The notes: generated by a model from the sequence alone, not told the origin. Positions 1-7,285 are shown, numbered from the stretch's first letter. The stretch is DNA of 43,184 nt from an uncultured bacterium (GCA_913009415.1 CAJVYM010000007.1:1-43184); one strand, 5' to 3'. Made by a program: numbers and translations.

Positions 1-115
1 GAGGAGAGTACGTGAAAGGAAGTAGGATAGAGTAGGATGGGGAGAAATAATGAATAAGTCAAAGCAAGAAATAAAAACATTTATTTTTTGTGCTTTTTTT
101 GTTTTTTTTTTTTTT
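1..115. other. Non-genomic read tail
   Basis: Low-complexity purine-rich sequence followed by a long T tract (about 101-115) that directly abuts an Illumina adapter. Read on the minus strand, this is genomic insert, then adapter, then poly-A, then noise. That is the pattern produced when a read runs through the insert and off the end of the flow-cell oligonucleotide. I treat it as artefact, not as a terminator or a gene. Confidence 0.9.
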
Positions 116-173
116 AATGATACGGCGACCACCGAGATCTACACTCTTTCCCTACACGACGCTCTTCCGATCT
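116..173 (+). other. Illumina P5/TruSeq read-1 adapter
   Basis: The 58 nt beginning AATGATACGGCGACC and ending GCTCTTCCGATCT match the Illumina universal adapter over its full length. The adapter was not trimmed before assembly. Read on the minus strand it adds an artefactual C-terminal peptide (RSEERRVGKECRSRWSPYH) to the truncated gene that begins at 416. Confidence 0.98.
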
Positions 174-416
174 TTTGAATCTTTCTAGGTACTTAACTCG
201 ATCAAATTCATCGTGTGTAAATGGTGATTTATCAATGAGTCGGTCAATGGTCGATCTTAAGCGCCAACATTCTTCAGCCTGTCCCCGGTACGCGAATGTA
301 GGATAATCCAACAAACGTCCGTTTACTAAGCTAAAAAAGGCATCCCACTGATCAAGGCGAAACTCAAGGATTCCGTGACCTAGGTAATGTTCTTTGATTG
401 GCATCCGCACTTTCAT
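174..416 (-). CDS. FRG-domain protein, 3' truncated by contig end
   Basis: Only the first 81 residues are genomic; the reading frame then enters the sequencing adapter. The segment around residues 43-60 contains YRGQ, then W-x-L, then a downstream basic residue, as in FRG domains (named for the conserved F/Y-R-G motif). FRG proteins are common in phage-defence and mobile regions, but their biochemical role is poorly known. The start at 416 gives a plausible N-terminus (MKVRMPIKE). The gene is more AT-rich than the core genes to its right, as is its neighbour at 513-1238, which suggests transfer. Function cannot be said from this fragment. Confidence 0.7.
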
Positions 417-512
417 AGCATCGACCGATCCTAGTGTTTAAGCTAACTTACTGCTGTGGGGCGCGCGGCAGTTTTGCGCGTCCCTACCAGCAGATCATTA
501 TGTGATTTTGTC

Positions 513-1238
513 TTAATTTAAACGATGTTCTAAAATGTCCTTAATCTTTTTCCCAATATCAGAAATTCGCACAGTTAATTCAGATCCCTCAACTATATAT
601 GGTTCACTCGCTCTCTTCCAGTCATCCTGATCTCTAACCATTACATCTGGTGATACTAATTCAAACAGTTCTGAAGTGGCAATATTACCAGCTTCATCCA
701 AGGTCAGGTAATCGTCACGATCTTCAATCCGATATTTCCACCCATTCTCATTTTTCCATCCTGACTCAACAAACCATTTCAGGTCTTCCAGTATTACTTG
801 ATCAACAATATAAGAGGCCCTTAAAAATTCGTCATAGCTCATTCTTTCTGATAAAAAAGCTGAGAATAAAAGAGCGATTATTTGTGATTTCTCATAGTCT
901 TCACACTTATCAATTATGTATAGGAGTTTTTCACCAACTTTCGTCCTAAATTTACCGGAATTGTCAATTCTGTCTATCATTTTATGACGTTTTGTTGCCG
1001 ATATATTTTTAAGTTCGGAAATAAAATAGATTATCTTTTTTAGAAATAGAATTTCCTTGATTCCCATACTGGCCTTTCCAAGACCAATAACAGTGCCAAT
1101 AATGGGAATATCTTTTGCAATACCATCCTCAATAAGGCTGTCCGCAAAAACTTCAGCTAATCCGATCGTGGCATTTTGCAAGTCACTATCTTTTAAGGTC
1201 TGGCTAAAAGAATGTGATAATTTATTTAGTTCTGACAT
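513..1238 (-). CDS. Hypothetical protein, AT-rich, with a hydrophobic segment
   Basis: A 241-residue protein that I do not recognise. Residues about 43-75 form a hydrophobic stretch (DIPIIGTVIGLGKASMG... then LFLKKIIYFI) that could be a membrane hairpin or a buried helix pair. The rest is charged and helical, with an acidic/aromatic section (WKNENGWKYR) and a lysine-rich C-terminus. Base composition is clearly AT-richer than the core genes. It lies downstream of the truncated FRG gene in the same orientation, about 97 bp beyond that gene's start, and next to toxin-antitoxin genes, so a defence or mobile-element role is possible but unproven. Confidence 0.75.
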   Translation of the reverse strand: MSELNKLSHSFSQTLKDSDLQNATIGLAEVFADSLIEDGIAKDIPIIGTVIGLGKASMGIKEILFLKKIIYFISELKNISATKRHKMIDRIDNSGKFRTKVGEKLLYIIDKCEDYEKSQIIALLFSAFLSERMSYDEFLRASYIVDQVILEDLKWFVESGWKNENGWKYRIEDRDDYLTLDEAGNIATSELFELVSPDVMVRDQDDWKRASEPYIVEGSELTVRISDIGKKIKDILEHRLN

Positions 1239-1338
1239 TTCACTACTTCACATAACTCATTATTCTACCCAAAATCTCCCTCTTGCCGGGAAATCAAGCC
1301 CCCGACGTTACGCATTCTATAACTCCATCTCTGTACTG

Positions 1339-1545
1339 TCAAGAGGAGAACTGAAGAAACGGTTTGATCGGAATCAGCCCAGCGATTAATGCAACATTCT
1401 CCAAGTACAGCTCAGTCGCTTCCTTCCAGTTTGCGAGTGCGTCGGAAGGGGAGTCGCCTGCGCTTGCTACCCCAAGCTCTGAACACTTGGCAACGTATCC
1501 TTCCGGCTCTTTCCAGATTGTTGCTGTCAGCTTGTATGTAAGCAT
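1339..1545 (-). CDS. HicB-family antitoxin, solitary
   Basis: A short protein with the HicB/UPF0150 pattern: an N-terminal strand (MLTYKLTATIWKE), then EGYVAKCSELGVASAGDSPSDALANWKEA, matching the degenerate RNase-H-like fold of HicB antitoxins. HicB normally neutralises the mRNA interferase HicA. No HicA-like frame (about 60 residues with the catalytic His) is visible within the roughly 100 bp on either side, so this is a solitary copy. An upstream in-frame ATG at 1569 would add 8 residues. I prefer 1545 because the first beta strand begins there, but GACAGGA abuts this ATG directly, so the start is uncertain. Confidence 0.7.
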   Translation of the reverse strand: MLTYKLTATIWKEPEGYVAKCSELGVASAGDSPSDALANWKEATELYLENVALIAGLIPIKPFLQFSS

Positions 1546-1632
1546 TCCTGTCACAACCCTGGGAAGCATCCACCATCGCTTCCTGTCTTCAGGCTAGCAC
1601 CGCAGACAGGGATTGTCAAGCGGAAAGGACAA

Positions 1633-1878
1633 TCACGCCTTTCCCAGATCTTTTCGCACATGCGGGATCAACCCTCCGTCTTCGAGGATTGCGAGGACTT
1701 CCTTCGAAAGTGCTGGAAAGTGATACTCATTACCCTCGTGAATCACCATACCATTCTCGAAGTCGATCGAGAGGGTATCGCTCTTTTTCATCGCGTCGAT
1801 GTCTTCTGAAAGCTCGATCACGGGAAGGCCGTTGTTGACCGCGTTGCGAAAGAAGATGTGCGAGAAGGATTTGGCGAT
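1633..1878 (-). pseudogene. LeuD 3'-end fragment, copy 1
   Basis: About 246 bp homologous to the 3' end of the complete leuD-like gene at 3431-3922, from IAKSF through the stop codon. The reading frame is open throughout and ends in the equivalent place (PHVRKDLGKA). Over the last 62 residues roughly 12 amino acids differ from the full copy, with additional silent changes. Homology stops abruptly at the upstream edge, inside a codon run ending in ATCGCC. It cannot encode a functional swivelling domain because the N-terminal half is missing. See the finding on leuD 3' ends flanking toxin-antitoxin modules. Confidence 0.85.
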
Positions 1879-1987
1879 TTTGTCCCTCTCCGGCCCAAGA
1901 GATCGGGCGATGTGCTATCGAGGGGAGGTTTGTGCTACTATCGTTGTCAGGCAGAGAAGTAGCCGCTGGTCAAGGAGGTCGTTGGTA

Positions 1988-2317
1988 GTGAAGCTGTTAC
2001 CAGAGGAGCGAGTTTGGCTGGACGATTTCATCGAGGCCATCCGCCATGGCTTCCCTGGACTGATCAAGCAGGTGACAGTCTTCGGTTCAAAAGCACGTGA
2101 AGATGCCACTCCCGATTCCGACCTGGATGTGCTCGTTATCATCATAGGGAAAGAAGATCTCAAATCCCGTATCCGTTTGCTTGGATATGAGTTAGCGCTG
2201 GGGAAGGATGTGGTGCCTTCTATCGCAGTTTACACCGTCCAAGAGATTGAACAACGCAGAGAGCACCGCTCACCCTTCCTAGAGGCGGTGGAGCGGGAGG
2301 GTGTGGTGATCTCGTGA
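1988..2317 (+). CDS. MNT-type minimal nucleotidyltransferase (antitoxin of MNT/HEPN pair)
   Basis: A 109-residue protein with the nucleotidyltransferase signature VFGSKAREDATPDSDLDVLV (GS...D-x-D). MNT proteins paired with HEPN toxins act as antitoxins, in studied cases by AMPylating the HEPN partner. The frame opens earlier, but I choose GTG at 1988 because a perfect Shine-Dalgarno (AAGGAGGT, 1972-1979) lies 8 nt upstream. The upstream part of the frame is antisense to the leuD fragment. It overlaps the HEPN gene by 4 nt (GTGA) and is transcribed opposite to the flanking genes. Confidence 0.85.
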   Translation: MKLLPEERVWLDDFIEAIRHGFPGLIKQVTVFGSKAREDATPDSDLDVLVIIIGKEDLKSRIRLLGYELALGKDVVPSIAVYTVQEIEQRREHRSPFLEAVEREGVVIS

Positions 2318-2721
2318 GGGAAGTCCAGATTAGAGCCGAATGGCGACGAGCTGTGAAGGCCCAGGGAGCAGCGGATCTCTTGCTCGAAGAAGGTTTTTAC
2401 GAAGATGCCGTCTCGCGAGCCTATTATGCCGTCCTTCATGCGGCCAAGGCCGCGTTGCTTGCGCGAGATATAGTAACAGAGAGCCATACTGCTGTGAGGC
2501 GTCTCTTCGGAAAAGAGCTGGTGCAACAGGGTCTTCTCGAGAAGGAGTGGGCGATGATCTTCGCACATGAGCAGGATGAAAGAGCTTCCGCTGATTACGA
2601 TGTAGAGTTGACCTTTTCCCAAGATGTTGCAGGACAGCGCGTAGAGGAGTCAAGACGTTTTCTGAAACGAATCTGCTCCTTTCTGCAGAGAGAAGGGCTC
2701 GATGACATGGTTCCGGTTTGA
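2314..2721 (+). CDS. HEPN-domain protein (putative RNase toxin)
   Basis: A 135-residue all-helical protein with the HEPN core SRAYYAVLHAAKAALLA near residues 34-50, followed by R51-x6-H58, which resembles the R-x(4-6)-H catalytic motif of HEPN ribonucleases. The GTG start overlaps the stop of the upstream nucleotidyltransferase gene, as is typical for MNT/HEPN toxin-antitoxin pairs. The pair sits between two leuD 3'-end copies. Whether it is an active toxin or a housekeeping pair cannot be told from the sequence. Confidence 0.85.
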   Translation: MREVQIRAEWRRAVKAQGAADLLLEEGFYEDAVSRAYYAVLHAAKAALLARDIVTESHTAVRRLFGKELVQQGLLEKEWAMIFAHEQDERASADYDVELTFSQDVAGQRVEESRRFLKRICSFLQREGLDDMVPV

Positions 2722-2769
2722 GCTTCTCGGCCCGCATAGCCTTGAGTGCGAAATCTTACAATGCAACAC

Positions 2770-2903
2770 TCATCCCCTCCCCAACGCCTTCCGCACGTGC
2801 GGAATCAGACCACCGTCTTGGAGGATGGCGAGGACTTCTTTGGGTAGTGCGGGAAACTGATACTCATTACCTTCGTGGATAACGACGCTTATCTCAAACT
2901 GGG
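2770..2903 (-). pseudogene. LeuD 3'-end fragment, copy 2
   Basis: About 130 bp matching the last 40 codons of the leuD-like gene (VVIHEG... through PHVRKALGRG and the stop). The frame is intact to the equivalent stop codon, and similarity ends just beyond it. On the other side it breaks within about 5 bp of the stop codon of the DUF2283 gene. It differs from both copy 1 and the full gene by scattered substitutions, so it is not a recent identical duplication. Confidence 0.8.
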
Positions 2904-2905
2904 CC

Positions 2906-3136
2906 TTAGCTCTTCTCGGCAGCTTTCTCCAGCGGTCTAGTAATCTCAAAATTGACTGTAGAGAGATCAGCAACGGTGAGATGTGCGGAAGCATCTAGAA
3001 TCTCGATACCAATGATGTTTCCATCGATGTCATAATCAAGAATGAATCCATCCTTGATCTCGTCGCTCTCATGATACCCGCCCTCTTGGAGCTTGATGTA
3101 GAGGGCGTCTGCTTCTTCATCATATCTAACTCTCAT
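2906..3136 (-). CDS. DUF2283-family small protein (putative antitoxin)
   Basis: A 76-residue protein starting MRVRYDEEADALYIKL and continuing to GFILDYDIDGNIIGIEILDAS, the typical DUF2283 pattern of a beta-rich fold. Genes of this family commonly sit next to DUF4258 genes and are thought to form toxin-antitoxin-like pairs; biochemical proof is limited. ATG at 3136 overlaps the stop of the DUF4258 gene (ATGA) and has a GGGAGG ribosome site about 7 nt upstream, so I prefer it to an in-frame start at 3151. The C-terminus (KAAEKS) ends next to the second leuD fragment. Confidence 0.8.
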   Translation of the reverse strand: MRVRYDEEADALYIKLQEGGYHESDEIKDGFILDYDIDGNIIGIEILDASAHLTVADLSTVNFEITRPLEKAAEKS

Positions 3137-3393
3137 CGGCTTCCCTCCCAATACTTGTCAATCTTTGAAGTCCAATACGCTGTTATCACCTTCGTCGTTC
3201 CTTCTGCTTCAATATACACCACGCGCAGTAGGAATTCTTGATTCGCACGATTCGTGATCCCCTGCACAATCTGCTTGTTTCCCTTCCCCTTTATAACTTG
3301 TTGCGGCTTCCTGATCAATTCCTCAACGGTCTCTCTTGCGATCTCCCGTTCTTCCAGAGTACCTTCTGCATGCTTACTATACTGAACTTTCAT
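3133..3393 (-). CDS. DUF4258-family protein (putative toxin partner)
   Basis: An 86-residue protein with YSKHAEGTLEEREI near the N-terminus, a central IRKPQQVIKGKGNKQIVQG segment and a C-terminal VVYIEAEGTTKVITAYWTSK. This is the DUF4258 pattern, related to the RelE/BrnT-like beta-sheet RNase fold. It is the first gene of a two-gene unit with the DUF2283 gene, overlapping by ATGA. The unit follows leuD by about 37 bp in the same orientation, so it could be read through from the metabolic operon. Confidence 0.8.
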   Translation of the reverse strand: MKVQYSKHAEGTLEEREIARETVEELIRKPQQVIKGKGNKQIVQGITNRANQEFLLRVVYIEAEGTTKVITAYWTSKIDKYWEGSR

Positions 3394-3430
3394 GCGAACC
3401 GCCTAGATTTCTAGTACTACGACAGAATAC

Positions 3431-3922
3431 TCACGCCTTCCCTAATGCCTTCCTCACATGCGGGATCAGGCCGCCGTCTTCTAGGATGGCGAGAACTTCC
3501 TTGGGTAGTGCGGGAAAGTGATATTCCTTACCTTCGTGGATGACGATGCCGTTCTCAAAGTCGATTTTGACGCTGTCGTCCTTCTTCATTTCATCGATCC
3601 CTTCTCTTAACTCGATCACGGGAAGGCCGTTGTTGATCGCGTTTCTAAAGAAGATGCGTGAGAAGGATTTGGCGATCACCGCTGCCACTCCGGCTGCCTT
3701 AAGACAAGTTGCCGCTTGCTCGCGCGATGAGCCGCAGCCGAAGTTCGCCCCGGCGACAATCACGTCCCCTGTCTTCACTCCCTTAGCAAAGCTCGGATCG
3801 AGATCCTCCATGGCGTGCTCGGCCATCTCCGCCGGCTCCATCGGTTGGTAGGTGTACTTGCCAGGGAAGATGACGTCGGTGTTGACGTCGTCCCCGTACT
3901 TCCAGACCCACCCTTCGATCAT
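3431..3922 (-). CDS. LeuD-like small subunit of an aconitase-family hydro-lyase
   Basis: A 163-residue swivelling-domain subunit: GWVWKYGDDVNTDVIFPGKY at the N-terminus, then NFGCGSSREQA near residues 61-71 (the conserved GSSRE loop that contacts substrate), SFSRIFFRNAINNGLP, and a C-terminal GGLIPHVRKALGKA. It pairs with the adjacent large subunit by an ATGA overlap. The specificity loop after the first strand reads KYTYQ. The archaeal isopropylmalate and homoaconitate enzymes I know have YL-x there, so the substrate should not be assumed to be isopropylmalate. The neighbours are citrate-lyase genes, not leuA/leuB. Its 3' end is the parent type of two fragments at 1633 and 2770. Confidence 0.88.
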   Translation of the reverse strand: MIEGWVWKYGDDVNTDVIFPGKYTYQPMEPAEMAEHAMEDLDPSFAKGVKTGDVIVAGANFGCGSSREQAATCLKAAGVAAVIAKSFSRIFFRNAINNGLPVIELREGIDEMKKDDSVKIDFENGIVIHEGKEYHFPALPKEVLAILEDGGLIPHVRKALGKA

Positions 3923-5190
3923 TTCGCACCTCCTTCAAACACTTCACGCGGATCGGTGATGACGCCGGTCAGTACCGATGCGGCCACCGTCGCCGGCGAG
4001 GCGAGGTAGATCTCCGCTTCGCGCGATCCCATCCTTCCCTTGAAGTTGCGGTTGGCCGTGGACAGGCAGACCTCACCCGGTGCTAACACTCCCTGATGCG
4101 CACCGAGGCAGGGGCCGCAACCGGGATTGAGGACCATCGCTCCGGCGCGGACGAATGTATCGACTAATCCCTCGGATAGGGCATCGAGCAATACCTCCTG
4201 CGATGCCGGGAGCACGAGCATGCGCACACCCTTGGCGATCTTCTTCGCATCGATGATGCGCGCCGCCAGGCGCAGGTCCTCCAGCCGTCCGTTGGTGCAC
4301 GTGCCGAGGAGAACCTGGTCGATCTTGGTCCCCGCGACATCCTCCACCGGGGAGACGTTGTCCACCGTGTGCGGTTTTGCCACCTGCGGGCCAAGTTGCG
4401 AAGCGTCGAACTTCAGCACCTGTTCGTACTGAGCATCGGGATCGGGATAGACGGGATAGTACTCGCGCACGGCGCGGCCTTCGAGGAAGCGGAACGTCTT
4501 GTCATCGGGAGCGATGTACCCGTTCTTTGCCCCACACTCGATCGCCATGTTGGACAGGATCATGCGTGAGGCCTGGCTCATCTCGCTGATCGCCTCGCCG
4601 GAGAATTCGATGGACTTGTACAACGCTCCGTCGGCGCCGATATCACCGATGATCTTCAATATGAGGTCCTTCGAGGTGACCGGTTCACGCAGCTTTCCAT
4701 GCACGACGATCTTGATGCTCTCCGGCGTCTTCAGCCAGATCTTGGATGTCGCGTACAGCACGGCCATCTCCGAGCGGCCGATCCCTGCGGAGAAGGCACC
4801 GAACGCGCCGTAGGTGGTGGTGTGGGAGTCCGAACCGAGGATGAGGGCGCCAGGGAGGGCGTACCCCTTCTCCGGCAGGACCTGATGGCAGATCCCAACA
4901 CCAGCATCGTAGAAGTGTTCTATCCCCTGATTAGCGACAAACTCGCGGATCTCCTTGTGTCCCAGCGCGTACTTCTCCGTGGATGCTGGGACCGTGTGGT
5001 CGAGGACGATCACGAACCGCCCCGGGTCCTTCACCCGCTCTACACCGATCTTGGCGAAGATCTTGCTGATCGCCGCGGTATTGTCGTGCGACATACAAAA
5101 GTCGGGCGTGATCTCCACAATCTGGCCCACCTCGACGTAGTCGAGACCAGCCTTTTGCGCGAGGATCTTCTGCGCGAACGTCATTTTCAT
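3919..5190 (-). CDS. LeuC-like large subunit of an aconitase-family hydro-lyase
   Basis: A 423-residue [4Fe-4S] hydro-lyase subunit of the LeuC/homoaconitase/2-methylmalate-dehydratase group. The three cluster ligands are visible as C298 (GTCTNGR) and C358/C361 (NPGCGPCLG). HDNTAA, LGSDSHTTTYGAFGAF and KGRMGS are further family motifs. I choose ATG 5190: AGGGGGTGAT lies 6-7 nt upstream, whereas a GTG at 5199 has no such spacing. It forms a heterodimer with the LeuD-like protein. Isopropylmalate, citrate/aconitate, homocitrate and mesaconate/citramalate are all used by relatives; operon context with citrate-lyase subunits favours a substrate linked to acetate release. Confidence 0.88.
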   Translation of the reverse strand: MKMTFAQKILAQKAGLDYVEVGQIVEITPDFCMSHDNTAAISKIFAKIGVERVKDPGRFVIVLDHTVPASTEKYALGHKEIREFVANQGIEHFYDAGVGICHQVLPEKGYALPGALILGSDSHTTTYGAFGAFSAGIGRSEMAVLYATSKIWLKTPESIKIVVHGKLREPVTSKDLILKIIGDIGADGALYKSIEFSGEAISEMSQASRMILSNMAIECGAKNGYIAPDDKTFRFLEGRAVREYYPVYPDPDAQYEQVLKFDASQLGPQVAKPHTVDNVSPVEDVAGTKIDQVLLGTCTNGRLEDLRLAARIIDAKKIAKGVRMLVLPASQEVLLDALSEGLVDTFVRAGAMVLNPGCGPCLGAHQGVLAPGEVCLSTANRNFKGRMGSREAEIYLASPATVAASVLTGVITDPREVFEGGAK

Positions 5191-5195
5191 ACCGA

Positions 5196-5744
5196 TCACC
5201 CCCTTGGGGAATTTGTTCCCGCAATCGTATCGAAGTTCATGAAATCGGCCAGATGGACGACCACTGCCTCGGGCGTGCGCTTGTACGGGTCGCCCTCCTT
5301 GGAGTGGGTTGCGATGACGTGTTGCACCTCTGGAGGGATGCCGTTAGCATCGGCAAGGGCGACACCGGAGAAGGGGTGGCGCACAAGCTTACCCTCCGCG
5401 CTCTTGCGGAATTCTCCGTTCGATTCTTCCATCTCCAACAGCTTTCCCACATCGTGCAGTAGCGCACCGGCAAGGATGATGTCGCGATTCAAGAAAAGCT
5501 TGCCCTGATAGATCTCTTCAAAGGTTTCGTAGACGTGCAGGCAGATCTTGGTAACGCTCCTCACGTGCTGAGCGAAGTTGATATCCACCACCTTGGCCAG
5601 GGTGAACGGCATCCGCTCGATGTCGAATGCTTTCCAGCCACCGCGCACTATGGCGTCCTCCCACGTTTTGGTCACGCCCTCGCGCAGCTTTTTGTCCTCG
5701 ATCAGATTGATCTCCGGCAGAACCCGCAACAACTCTTCTCTCAT
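5196..5744 (-). CDS. HD-domain phosphohydrolase
   Basis: A 182-residue protein with metal-binding HD residues: His near 60 (AQHVRSV), the LLHDVGK doublet near 97-98, HPFSG near 123, then HVIATHSKEGD and VVHLADFMNFD. These fit the HD superfamily of metal-dependent phosphohydrolases. The substrate is unknown. The gene sits inside the citF-leuCD operon: ATG 5744 forms an ATGA overlap with the citF stop and has GGAAGG upstream (an in-frame ATG 6 nt earlier, at 5750, lies directly on that site). This position suggests either repair or recycling of a nucleotide-like cofactor, such as the lyase prosthetic group, or signalling. That is inference only. Confidence 0.85.
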   Translation of the reverse strand: MREELLRVLPEINLIEDKKLREGVTKTWEDAIVRGGWKAFDIERMPFTLAKVVDINFAQHVRSVTKICLHVYETFEEIYQGKLFLNRDIILAGALLHDVGKLLEMEESNGEFRKSAEGKLVRHPFSGVALADANGIPPEVQHVIATHSKEGDPYKRTPEAVVVHLADFMNFDTIAGTNSPRG

Positions 5745-7285
5745 TGCCATCCTTCCACCCTCCTTACTACATCGATAACCGTTCCGTCACGCCACTCGAT
5801 GAGCGCGATCACTTCATCGCCGAACACCGGCTTTCGCGGTGGGCGGGTGAGACGATCGGCCTCGGTTTTCATTTCTGCAAGCTCGCGCACCGGAAGCCCG
5901 GCGGCGACGAACCGCTCCTTCAGATCCTCTCTCCTTGGGTTTATCGCGATCCCACGCTCGGTGACGATCACATCGATCACCTCGCCCGGGGTGGTCACGG
6001 TGGTCACGCTATCTACGATAACTGGGAGCCGCCCGCGCAGGGTGGGGACGGTGATCAGCGTCAGTTTTGCGCCCGCGGCGACCTCTTGGTGTCCACCGAT
6101 TCCGTGCAGGAGCTGGCCATCGGAGTGGGTGTTCACATTTACATTGAAGTCGAGGTCGACCTCCGTCGCCCCGAGGAAGGCGGCGTCGAGCATGTATGTA
6201 GAGCAGCCGCGCGAATCGTAGTTGGCGTAGTGACCGGGGTCCATGAGTACATGGTTCTGATCATGCCGCATCGATTCGATTGCCGCCAGGTCGAATGCCT
6301 GCCCATTCAAGATGACACGCAACAACCCTTTGTGCAGGATGTCGACCAGGTACTTCGTTACCCCTCCAATGGCGAAGCTGCCGACGATTTCAGCACGGGC
6401 CATCTCCTCGCCAACGTACTTCGTCGCGGCGAGCGATATCCCGCCAGCCCCGCCCTGAAAGCTGAACCCGTCCACAATGCATCCCGATGCCTTAACCGCT
6501 GCCGCCGCCAGGCGCGCGATCTTCAGCCGCGTCGGCGAGCGGGTGATCTGCAGCGTTCCCGAGGCGATGCTGTTCGGATCACCGATCTCATCGACAACAA
6601 CAACGTAATCGGTCCATCCCTGCTGGATCTCGAACGGATAGGCCGGGTAAGGAGCGAGGTCGTTGGTCACCACCACCGTCTTCTCGGCGTACTGGGCGTC
6701 GATCGCGCTGTAGCTGATCGGACCACACGGGGTCTTTCCGTAGATACCGTTAGCATTTCCATACGGATCGGCCTGCGCGGCGGCGATGAACGCCACGTCG
6801 ATATGCACGTCTCCCGCCTCGACCGCCCGCCAGCGGCCCCCATGTGAGCGAAGGATTCCCGGCTGCGCGAGCTTTCCCCCTTGTGAGACGAACGCTCCAA
6901 TCGGCCCGTTCATCGAACCCTCGATCCGCGTCACCACACCGCTCTTGATGTGGTCGATCACCGGCTCGTGCACCGGGAAGAGCGCGGTGGGGAACAACCT
7001 AAGGTCATTGATCCCCATGCGCGCGCAGGCGTCGACGACCATGTTCACCAGGTAATCGCCGTTTCGAAAGGCGTGATGGAAGGAGACCGTCATCCCACTC
7101 TTGAGACCGGTCGCCTCGATCGCCTCTTCGATGGAATGTAGGACCTTGTTCTCATTTGGCCCGATGAATTTCTGCGGACGGGCTGCCTTGCGCCCGGTGG
7201 GAGTCGTTGCGAACGCCCCTTCGAACGGTCGTAAGACGCGACCAGCGATCTTCTCCGGTATCTCTCTGCCGAGTGAGTTTTTCAT
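5741..7285 (-). CDS. citF: Citrate lyase alpha subunit (citrate:ACP transferase) CitF
   Basis: A 514-residue protein with CitF landmarks: LGREIPEKIAGRVLRPFEGAFA at the N-terminus, VSFHHAFRNGDYLVN, GSMNGPIGAFVSQGGKL, ADPYGNANGIYGKTPCGPISYS, and the C-terminal TERGIAINPRR. CitF moves the acid onto the acyl carrier, exchanging it for acetate. The ATG at 7285 overlaps the citDE stop (ATGA), with AAAGGGGG 6 nt upstream; the ATG at 7291 lies immediately after that site. Homologues serve citrate lyase and citramalate lyase, so the exact hydroxy-acid is open. The activating ligase CitC and the prosthetic-group enzymes CitG/CitX are not in this window. Confidence 0.9.
   Translation of the reverse strand: MKNSLGREIPEKIAGRVLRPFEGAFATTPTGRKAARPQKFIGPNENKVLHSIEEAIEATGLKSGMTVSFHHAFRNGDYLVNMVVDACARMGINDLRLFPTALFPVHEPVIDHIKSGVVTRIEGSMNGPIGAFVSQGGKLAQPGILRSHGGRWRAVEAGDVHIDVAFIAAAQADPYGNANGIYGKTPCGPISYSAIDAQYAEKTVVVTNDLAPYPAYPFEIQQGWTDYVVVVDEIGDPNSIASGTLQITRSPTRLKIARLAAAAVKASGCIVDGFSFQGGAGGISLAATKYVGEEMARAEIVGSFAIGGVTKYLVDILHKGLLRVILNGQAFDLAAIESMRHDQNHVLMDPGHYANYDSRGCSTYMLDAAFLGATEVDLDFNVNVNTHSDGQLLHGIGGHQEVAAGAKLTLITVPTLRGRLPVIVDSVTTVTTPGEVIDVIVTERGIAINPRREDLKERFVAAGLPVRELAEMKTEADRLTRPPRKPVFGDEVIALIEWRDGTVIDVVRRVEGWQ

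Follow-up and report, generated by a model that had tools for sequence, protein, structure and literature searches.

It is an open question how toxin-antitoxin pairs on chromosomes spread where no mobile element lies nearby. The locus described here poses it in a concrete form: downstream of an intact leuD gene there are two additional leuD 3' ends, with small gene pairs between them (Table 1). The window, i.e. the whole stretch of 43,184 nucleotides that we analysed, is contig C7 of a draft metagenome assembly (genome G000; G-numbers denote genomes, g-numbers genera and C-numbers contigs), and the nearest relatives of this draft genome are Candidatus Bipolaricaulota, a little-known, uncultured group. 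A previous reading of the sequence alone (the sequence-only reading) had proposed that cassettes were inserted serially at the 3' end of leuD, each bringing a donor 3' end that restores the gene. We asked whether relatives retain the expected empty sites, where the extra gene ends came from, and which kind of recombination could have placed them.

Displaced leuD 3' ends and their cargo

Table 1. Features of the leuD locus, in the order in which they follow leuC (positions in the window)
Feature	Position	Strand	Basis or remark
leuC	3919..5199	-	PF00330; upstream neighbour of leuD
leuD, intact, 163 aa	3431..3922	-	TIGR02087, 198 bits
Cassette 2 (DUF4258 + DUF2283)	2899..3430		Pfam; empty site in G086; distribution
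DUF4258 gene, cassette 2	3133-3393	-	PF14076
DUF2283 gene, cassette 2	2906-3136	-	PF10049
Copy 2, displaced leuD 3' end, codon 122 to stop	2770..2898	-	Collinear with G086 leuD 3' end and downstream DNA
Cassette 1 (HEPN + MNT)	1879..2769		Pfam; PADLOC PDC-S09; identity profile; dS
HEPN toxin-like gene, cassette 1	2314-2721	+	PF05168
MNT nucleotidyltransferase, antitoxin-like gene, cassette 1	~1982-2317	+	PF01909
Copy 1, displaced leuD 3' end, codon 83 to stop	1633..1878	-	Followed by ancestral leuD downstream DNA as in G084
HicB-like small gene	1339..1569	-	Ancestral downstream neighbour of leuD; 5' end directly after leuD in G084
Integron-platform-like repeat, attI-like	1250..1342	-	TTGACA-N17-TAGAAT promoter and leader ending at GTT core
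ORF, 241 aa, no family match	513..1238	-	Place fits first gene cassette after attI-like repeat

Copy 1 corresponds to leuD nucleotides 247-492 (246 bp, 79.7% DNA identity, E ~1e-57) and copy 2 to nucleotides 364-492 (129 bp, 83% DNA identity, E ~4e-33), and with such E-values chance likeness to leuD is excluded. Both copies stop at the leuD stop codon and their frames are open, with no stop or frameshift, as the sequence-only reading had it; its limits for copy 1 hold, but the end it gave for copy 2 (2903) was a few bases generous. There are no further repeats of this kind in the 43-kb window.

The cargo was also named correctly in that reading: the matches of all four cassette genes exceed the Pfam cut-offs. 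Cassette 1 encodes adjacent nucleotidyltransferase and HEPN domain proteins, as in type VII-like MNT/HEPN toxin-antitoxin systems, a class characterised by neutralisation of the toxin through adenylylation (the MntA equivalog model NF047752 matches the MNT gene below its cut-off only). As for the HicB gene reported after copy 1, the gene is present but its family assignment is weak (PF15919, E 0.03; PF24113, E 6e-4, below cut-off).

Since the window comes from a draft metagenome assembly, one might suspect an assembly or binning artefact, the more so as an exact Illumina TruSeq universal adapter was left at positions 116-173; with an adapter in its first ~173 bases this contig edge is artefactual, and bases 1-173 are not to be trusted. 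The junctions of the leuD copies, however, sit well inside the window, far from the contig edge, and the same structures recur in independent assemblies of different species, which contradicts an artefact and makes this explanation scarcely credible. Another contig of the same genome (C134) has adapter-like sequence at its end as well. An Rfam search of window positions 1-6000 gave no credible match.

Empty sites, cassette transfer and the age of the copies

We searched 100 genomes of the phylum, and made additional local alignments, for partial leuD 3' copies. Copies 3' of leuD were found in G086 (g1), G097 and G098 (g13), G079 (g8), G075 (g6) and G089 (g11), and G088 (g11) has leuD 3' copies on separate contigs. 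Comparable copies are therefore found in five genera of one family; none was found outside this family, where second matches are paralogues (~30-45% identity). Start points of the copies in relatives range between about codon 43 and codon 143, their ends lie at or near the stop codon, and every copy found beside leuD is downstream of it in direct orientation. At all occupied loci that hold leuD the leuD match spans the full length, so the target gene is intact.

A stepwise series can be followed from G084 through G086 to the window. In G084 (g1) leuD is joined directly to DNA leading into the HicB-like gene (the contig stops 204 nt past leuD). In G086, of the same genus, the order is leuD, HEPN/MNT, leuD 3' copy and HicB, i.e. 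one cassette and one displaced end; in the window it is leuD, DUF4258/DUF2283, copy 2, HEPN/MNT, copy 1 and HicB, with two displaced ends. From 2898 to ~1250 the window is collinear with G086 from leuD codon 122 on (1651 bp, 87%). It follows that copy 2 is a former leuD 3' end with its old downstream DNA still attached, and that G086 is the empty site for cassette 2. The window inserts are thus flanked by direct copies (129 and 246 bp) and have empty sites in G086 and G084. Cassette 2 is missing from G086, common to the window and G098, and present as a remnant in G089; cassettes occur in both orientations.

Relatives also carry differing cargo between leuD and coaD, the kind of variation that the sequence-only reading had suggested looking for. 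The conserved coaD-M16 peptidase-pnp block lies 3.8 kb downstream of leuD in G098, 12.1 kb in G097 (only the first part of the block, as the contig ends there) and 7.3 kb in G095, and from these differing distances the stretch from leuD to coaD is a variable slot. In G097, for example, genes of the HicB, PIN, TIR-8xMP and kinase-like kinds are among the cargo of this slot.

Some leuD 3' ends have other neighbours. On contigs C34 and C55 of G088 (L091/L092) a leuD 3' copy adjoins fba/gpmA/coaD, and coaD-M16-pnp has the opposite orientation to that in G098; at the copy these contigs have 151 identical bases in common, like an assembly-graph branch. Fragments of the leuD 3' end away from leuD adjoin a GNAT gene in G000 (C14; L103, 8646-9114) and G081 (C55/C62; L104/L126), accompanied by a HicB-platform unit in G000 C14 and G081 C62. 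Both ends of G081 C62 have matches within C55, as would be expected of two variants of one locus.

The MNT/HEPN cassette has moved between lineages. Over 7.9 kb upstream of leuD the window and G086 share 80.6% DNA identity; the value is 85% in leuD, reaches 95.3% in the HEPN/MNT cassette at the same place, and falls to 72-80% as soon as copy 1 begins. Likewise, dS is 0.21 for HEPN and 0.11 for MNT, against 0.91 for leuC, 0.69 for leuD and 0.69 for HicB. Compared with this background, the cassette must have entered one lineage or both after they had separated, and the edges of the transferred cassette are leuD-derived sequences. The points of exchange between G000 and G086 differ on the two sides (one near the leuD stop, the other near codon 83), so interchromatid or double exchange fits better than a single crossover with one circle.

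The longer copies differ from their own leuD mostly at synonymous sites: dN/dS is 0.09 for copy 1 of the window, 0.13 for the G086 copy and 0.16 for the G097 copy, with no stops. We simulated duplication followed by decay, with one duplicate constrained and the other unconstrained (400 runs each). Amino-acid changes as few as those in copy 1 of the window and in the G086 and G097 copies were seen in 0/400 runs in each case; several other copies are improbable under decay (P 0.0025-0.02), and the short ones (G098 copy 2 and the G075 copy) are compatible with decay after duplication. The synonymous excess and the simulation together indicate that most of the differences date from a time when the two versions were functional genes of separate lineages. 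Judged by this substitution pattern, the longer copies diverged under purifying selection before they were displaced, as the import of donor 3' ends predicts.

These results bear on the explanation by tandem duplications of leuD within the lineage, with cargo inserted later and decay of the copies. That all copies beside leuD lie downstream in direct orientation agrees with it, but a dN/dS of ~0.1 without stops, the stepwise empty sites and a transferred cassette bounded by copies do not, and we regard it as very improbable. Simple decayed duplicates, which the sequence-only reading had itself raised as an objection, are rejected for the longer copies; the short copies in G098 and G075 are uninformative in this respect.

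Phylogeny, the test proposed in the sequence-only reading, gives a less decisive picture. In trees of ~240 bp, copy 1 of the window groups with the leuD genes of g13/g9 (support 90/89) and the G079 copy with those of g3/g7 (support 89/76); the G088 copy groups with its own leuD. The foreign groupings are suggestive of capture, but not significant, since AU tests on these ~240 bp (p 0.17-0.38) do not reject a grouping of each copy with its own leuD. Copy 2 looks mosaic: 7/9 informative sites in its first half match the window leuD and 6/7 in its second half match the G086 leuD (16 informative sites, breakpoint chosen post hoc), and such a switch is the pattern that a crossover within the leuD arm would leave. 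We infer that the leuD 3' end in the window is likewise a mosaic with donor sequence.

Restriction-modification (R-M) systems offer the closest published relative. According to PMC1643837, PMC3031569 and PMC3874152, which describe the studies of Nobusato 2000 and Furuta 2010, these systems insert with duplication of a long target stretch of variable length. A toxin-antitoxin module might similarly enter the chromosome by itself and duplicate a long target, the copies decaying afterwards. The architecture, the variable length and the addiction-module cargo are similar (PMC3874152, PMC3031569), as are the lack of a known mobile element and the detection by genome comparison, and the grouping of the G088 copy with its own leuD would fit. 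However, copies made in this way begin identical, and the longer copies differ mainly synonymously, unlike decay; this disfavours such an origin for copy 1, and the pre-insertion divergence that the longer leuD copies carry points to donor-borne ends. The window further differs from the R-M insertions, as these sources describe them, in its cargo (MNT/HEPN and DUF4258/DUF2283, with no restriction-modification system) and in being serial at the 3' end of one core gene that is kept whole. Overall we consider this origin unlikely.

Probable homologous recombination and the integron neighbourhood

Donor-borne 3' ends could have been joined to leuD by homologous recombination or by a site-specific recombinase, and the sequence-only reading had left both open. 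The copy starts are variable, there is no fixed core and no integrase in the window, the copies look hybrid and the edges of the transferred cassette lie in homology; RecA-type recombination is therefore favoured. Probably, then, the leuD 3' end is an integration address used by homologous recombination, at which donor-borne toxin-antitoxin cassettes are stacked.

The process might run as follows. In DNA arriving from a related bacterium, a small toxin-antitoxin cassette would be attached to a leuD 3' end, and recombination inside leuD would yield an intact hybrid leuD, its last part being the donor's, with the cassette next to it. The recipient's own 3' end, from the codon where the cassette was joined, would stay downstream with the old flanking genes. 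Repeated rounds would stack cassettes proximally, the newest adjoining leuD and the oldest being most distant. The flanking leuD arms would permit renewed movement of cassettes between lineages by ordinary recombination, with leuD unharmed, and addiction modules would oppose their own loss. Either end joining of a linear fragment and a subsequent single crossover, or interchromatid integration, may have produced the founder junctions.

The recombination was probably homologous rather than site-specific, and the DNA was perhaps taken up by transformation. Genes for ComEC and DprA are found near each other on contig C62 of G000. ComEC and DprA occur also in bacteria without known competence, and their presence permits transformation but does not prove it.

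Experiments in other bacteria suggest that both founder routes are plausible. In E. coli, one-ended homology to the lacZ 3' end gave mostly partial duplications of the lacZ end (109-950 bp), which the authors attribute to a single crossover of circles whose lacZ fragment had been partly lost (PMC3240628). The inserted segment and the partial 3' duplication with variable start resemble the leuD case, but the lacZ case is laboratory plasmid conjugation and the leuD site a natural recurrent hotspot (PMC3240628). In pneumococcus, taken-up DNA bridging sister chromatids gave tandem duplications (PMC3784515). Recombination of imported DNA between sister chromatids is the likeness here; the S. pneumoniae merodiploids, unlike leuD, are large duplications between repeats with no cassette cargo (PMC3784515).

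The main competitor is an integrase acting in trans, IntI or another tyrosine recombinase, that uses the leuD 3' end while the element carries the replacement end. Restoring the 3' end of a gene is typical of site-specific integrating elements; in tyrosine recombinase islands the element supplies the 3' end, the displaced end lies at the far side, and serial insertion is possible. The neighbourhood also has integron features. A platform repeat of ~100 nt, a promoter-leader, is found at 16 places in six genomes upstream of unrelated genes, and in many relatives it ends at a GTTRRRY-like core. On the coaD contig of G096 it adjoins a divergent gene for an integron integrase (TIGR02249, 399 bits, cut-off 265; PF00589), hence the repeat looks like an attI platform, belonging to an integron in Bipolaricaulota. 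This integrase gene is in the same island as the leuD slot, on its coaD side, and G096 was the only relative in which our tests found intI. In G000, G086 and G097 the HicB-like gene and the attI-like repeat come after a leuD 3' copy, and the repeat also follows a mobB copy in G086, where it is downstream of a displaced MazE/Doc pair. Other sites of the repeat are on contigs C14, C33 and C16 of G000; C36, C163, C33 and C259 of G086; C277 (twice) and C35 of G097; C137 and C64 of G096; C62 and C19 of G081; and C125 of G085.

Against such an integrase, copies start at many codons, where a fixed core would give one start, and cassettes lie in both orientations. No attC was found at the leuD junctions in a strict RYYYAAC/GTTRRRY and folding screen, and the window indeed lacks an integrase, as had been noted from its sequence (no PF00589 match in contig C7). 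The window thus differs from tyrosine recombinase islands in having no integrase and no fixed core in the copies. It resembles a chromosomal integron in the attI-like repeat and promoter 3' of copy 1 and in one possible cassette, the ORF at the end of Table 1, followed by a single attC-like hairpin at 445-500; it differs in having no intI and no attC at the leuD junctions, and the toxin-antitoxin pairs are not attC-type cassettes. An integrase in trans is thus improbable, though a little less so than a long target duplication, and of the two kinds of recombination the homologous fits better and the site-specific less well. The simple model by homologous recombination leaves the attI-like repeats beside the copies and the leuD fragments at a second locus unexplained.

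The G096 integrase (C137; L141, 1477-2736) has ~115 extra N-terminal residues before its SAM-like domain. Truncated copies of this N-terminal stretch are found on G086 C163 and C52, G097 C35 and G000 C1.

The same architecture at mobB and the spread of toxin-antitoxin pairs

Serial insertion with displaced 3' ends is found at a second core gene. The order in G086 is mobB, DUF6036 nucleotidyltransferase gene, mobB fragment (codons 110-137), MazE/Doc, HicB, mobB 3' copy (codons 56-165) and another MazE/Doc. In G000, mobB runs straight into MazE/Doc, in contiguous alignment with the distal copy of G086 (80.5% over 954 bp), and G000 is accordingly the empty site for the G086 mobB insertions. The leuD site is therefore not unique, since mobB carries the same arrangement.

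A third mobB fragment is present on G086 C52. Searching 620 kb of G000 and G086 for more copies of gene 3' ends turned up mainly short dispersed repeats. Two candidates from G000 do not follow the leuD pattern: a triple repeat on C18 (L180, 700-3582) consists of diverged 5' ends of a restriction-enzyme-like gene (79-81% identity), and C22 (L184, 12749-19368) has tandem N-acyl-amino-acid-deacylase-like paralogues whose 3' ends are most alike (82%). In viral contigs searched for a vehicle, no leuD relative and a single weak HEPN match were found.

Of the sequence-only reading, the central claim of serial insertion with a donor 3' end restoring leuD stands, on empty and occupied sites in one genus, a transferred cassette and copies that evolved under selection. 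Calling the hotspot undescribed was too strong, because the entry of R-M systems with long target duplications is a related case already published. Papers on leuD as a site of integration, or on integrons in Bipolaricaulota, were sought with no relevant result, and in the literature searched, which covered few subscription journals, we came across no description of this architecture for toxin-antitoxin pairs.

A broader generalization can be offered only tentatively: the 3' ends of core genes in Bipolaricaulota (leuD, mobB) may be homology-armed docks for recombinase-free toxin-antitoxin cassettes that move between lineages, stacked in recorded order, with intI-less platforms participating. 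Each insertion leaves a fossil gene end, from which the order of events can be read and possibly the donor and the crossover too. Other such sites can be sought by a simple pattern, in which small gene pairs alternate with a stack of diverged, partial 3' copies of a single core gene. Our results suggest that small toxin-antitoxin pairs can spread by ordinary recombination with no enzyme of their own; if this is general, a short gene-end arm would suffice to mobilise addiction modules by recombination.
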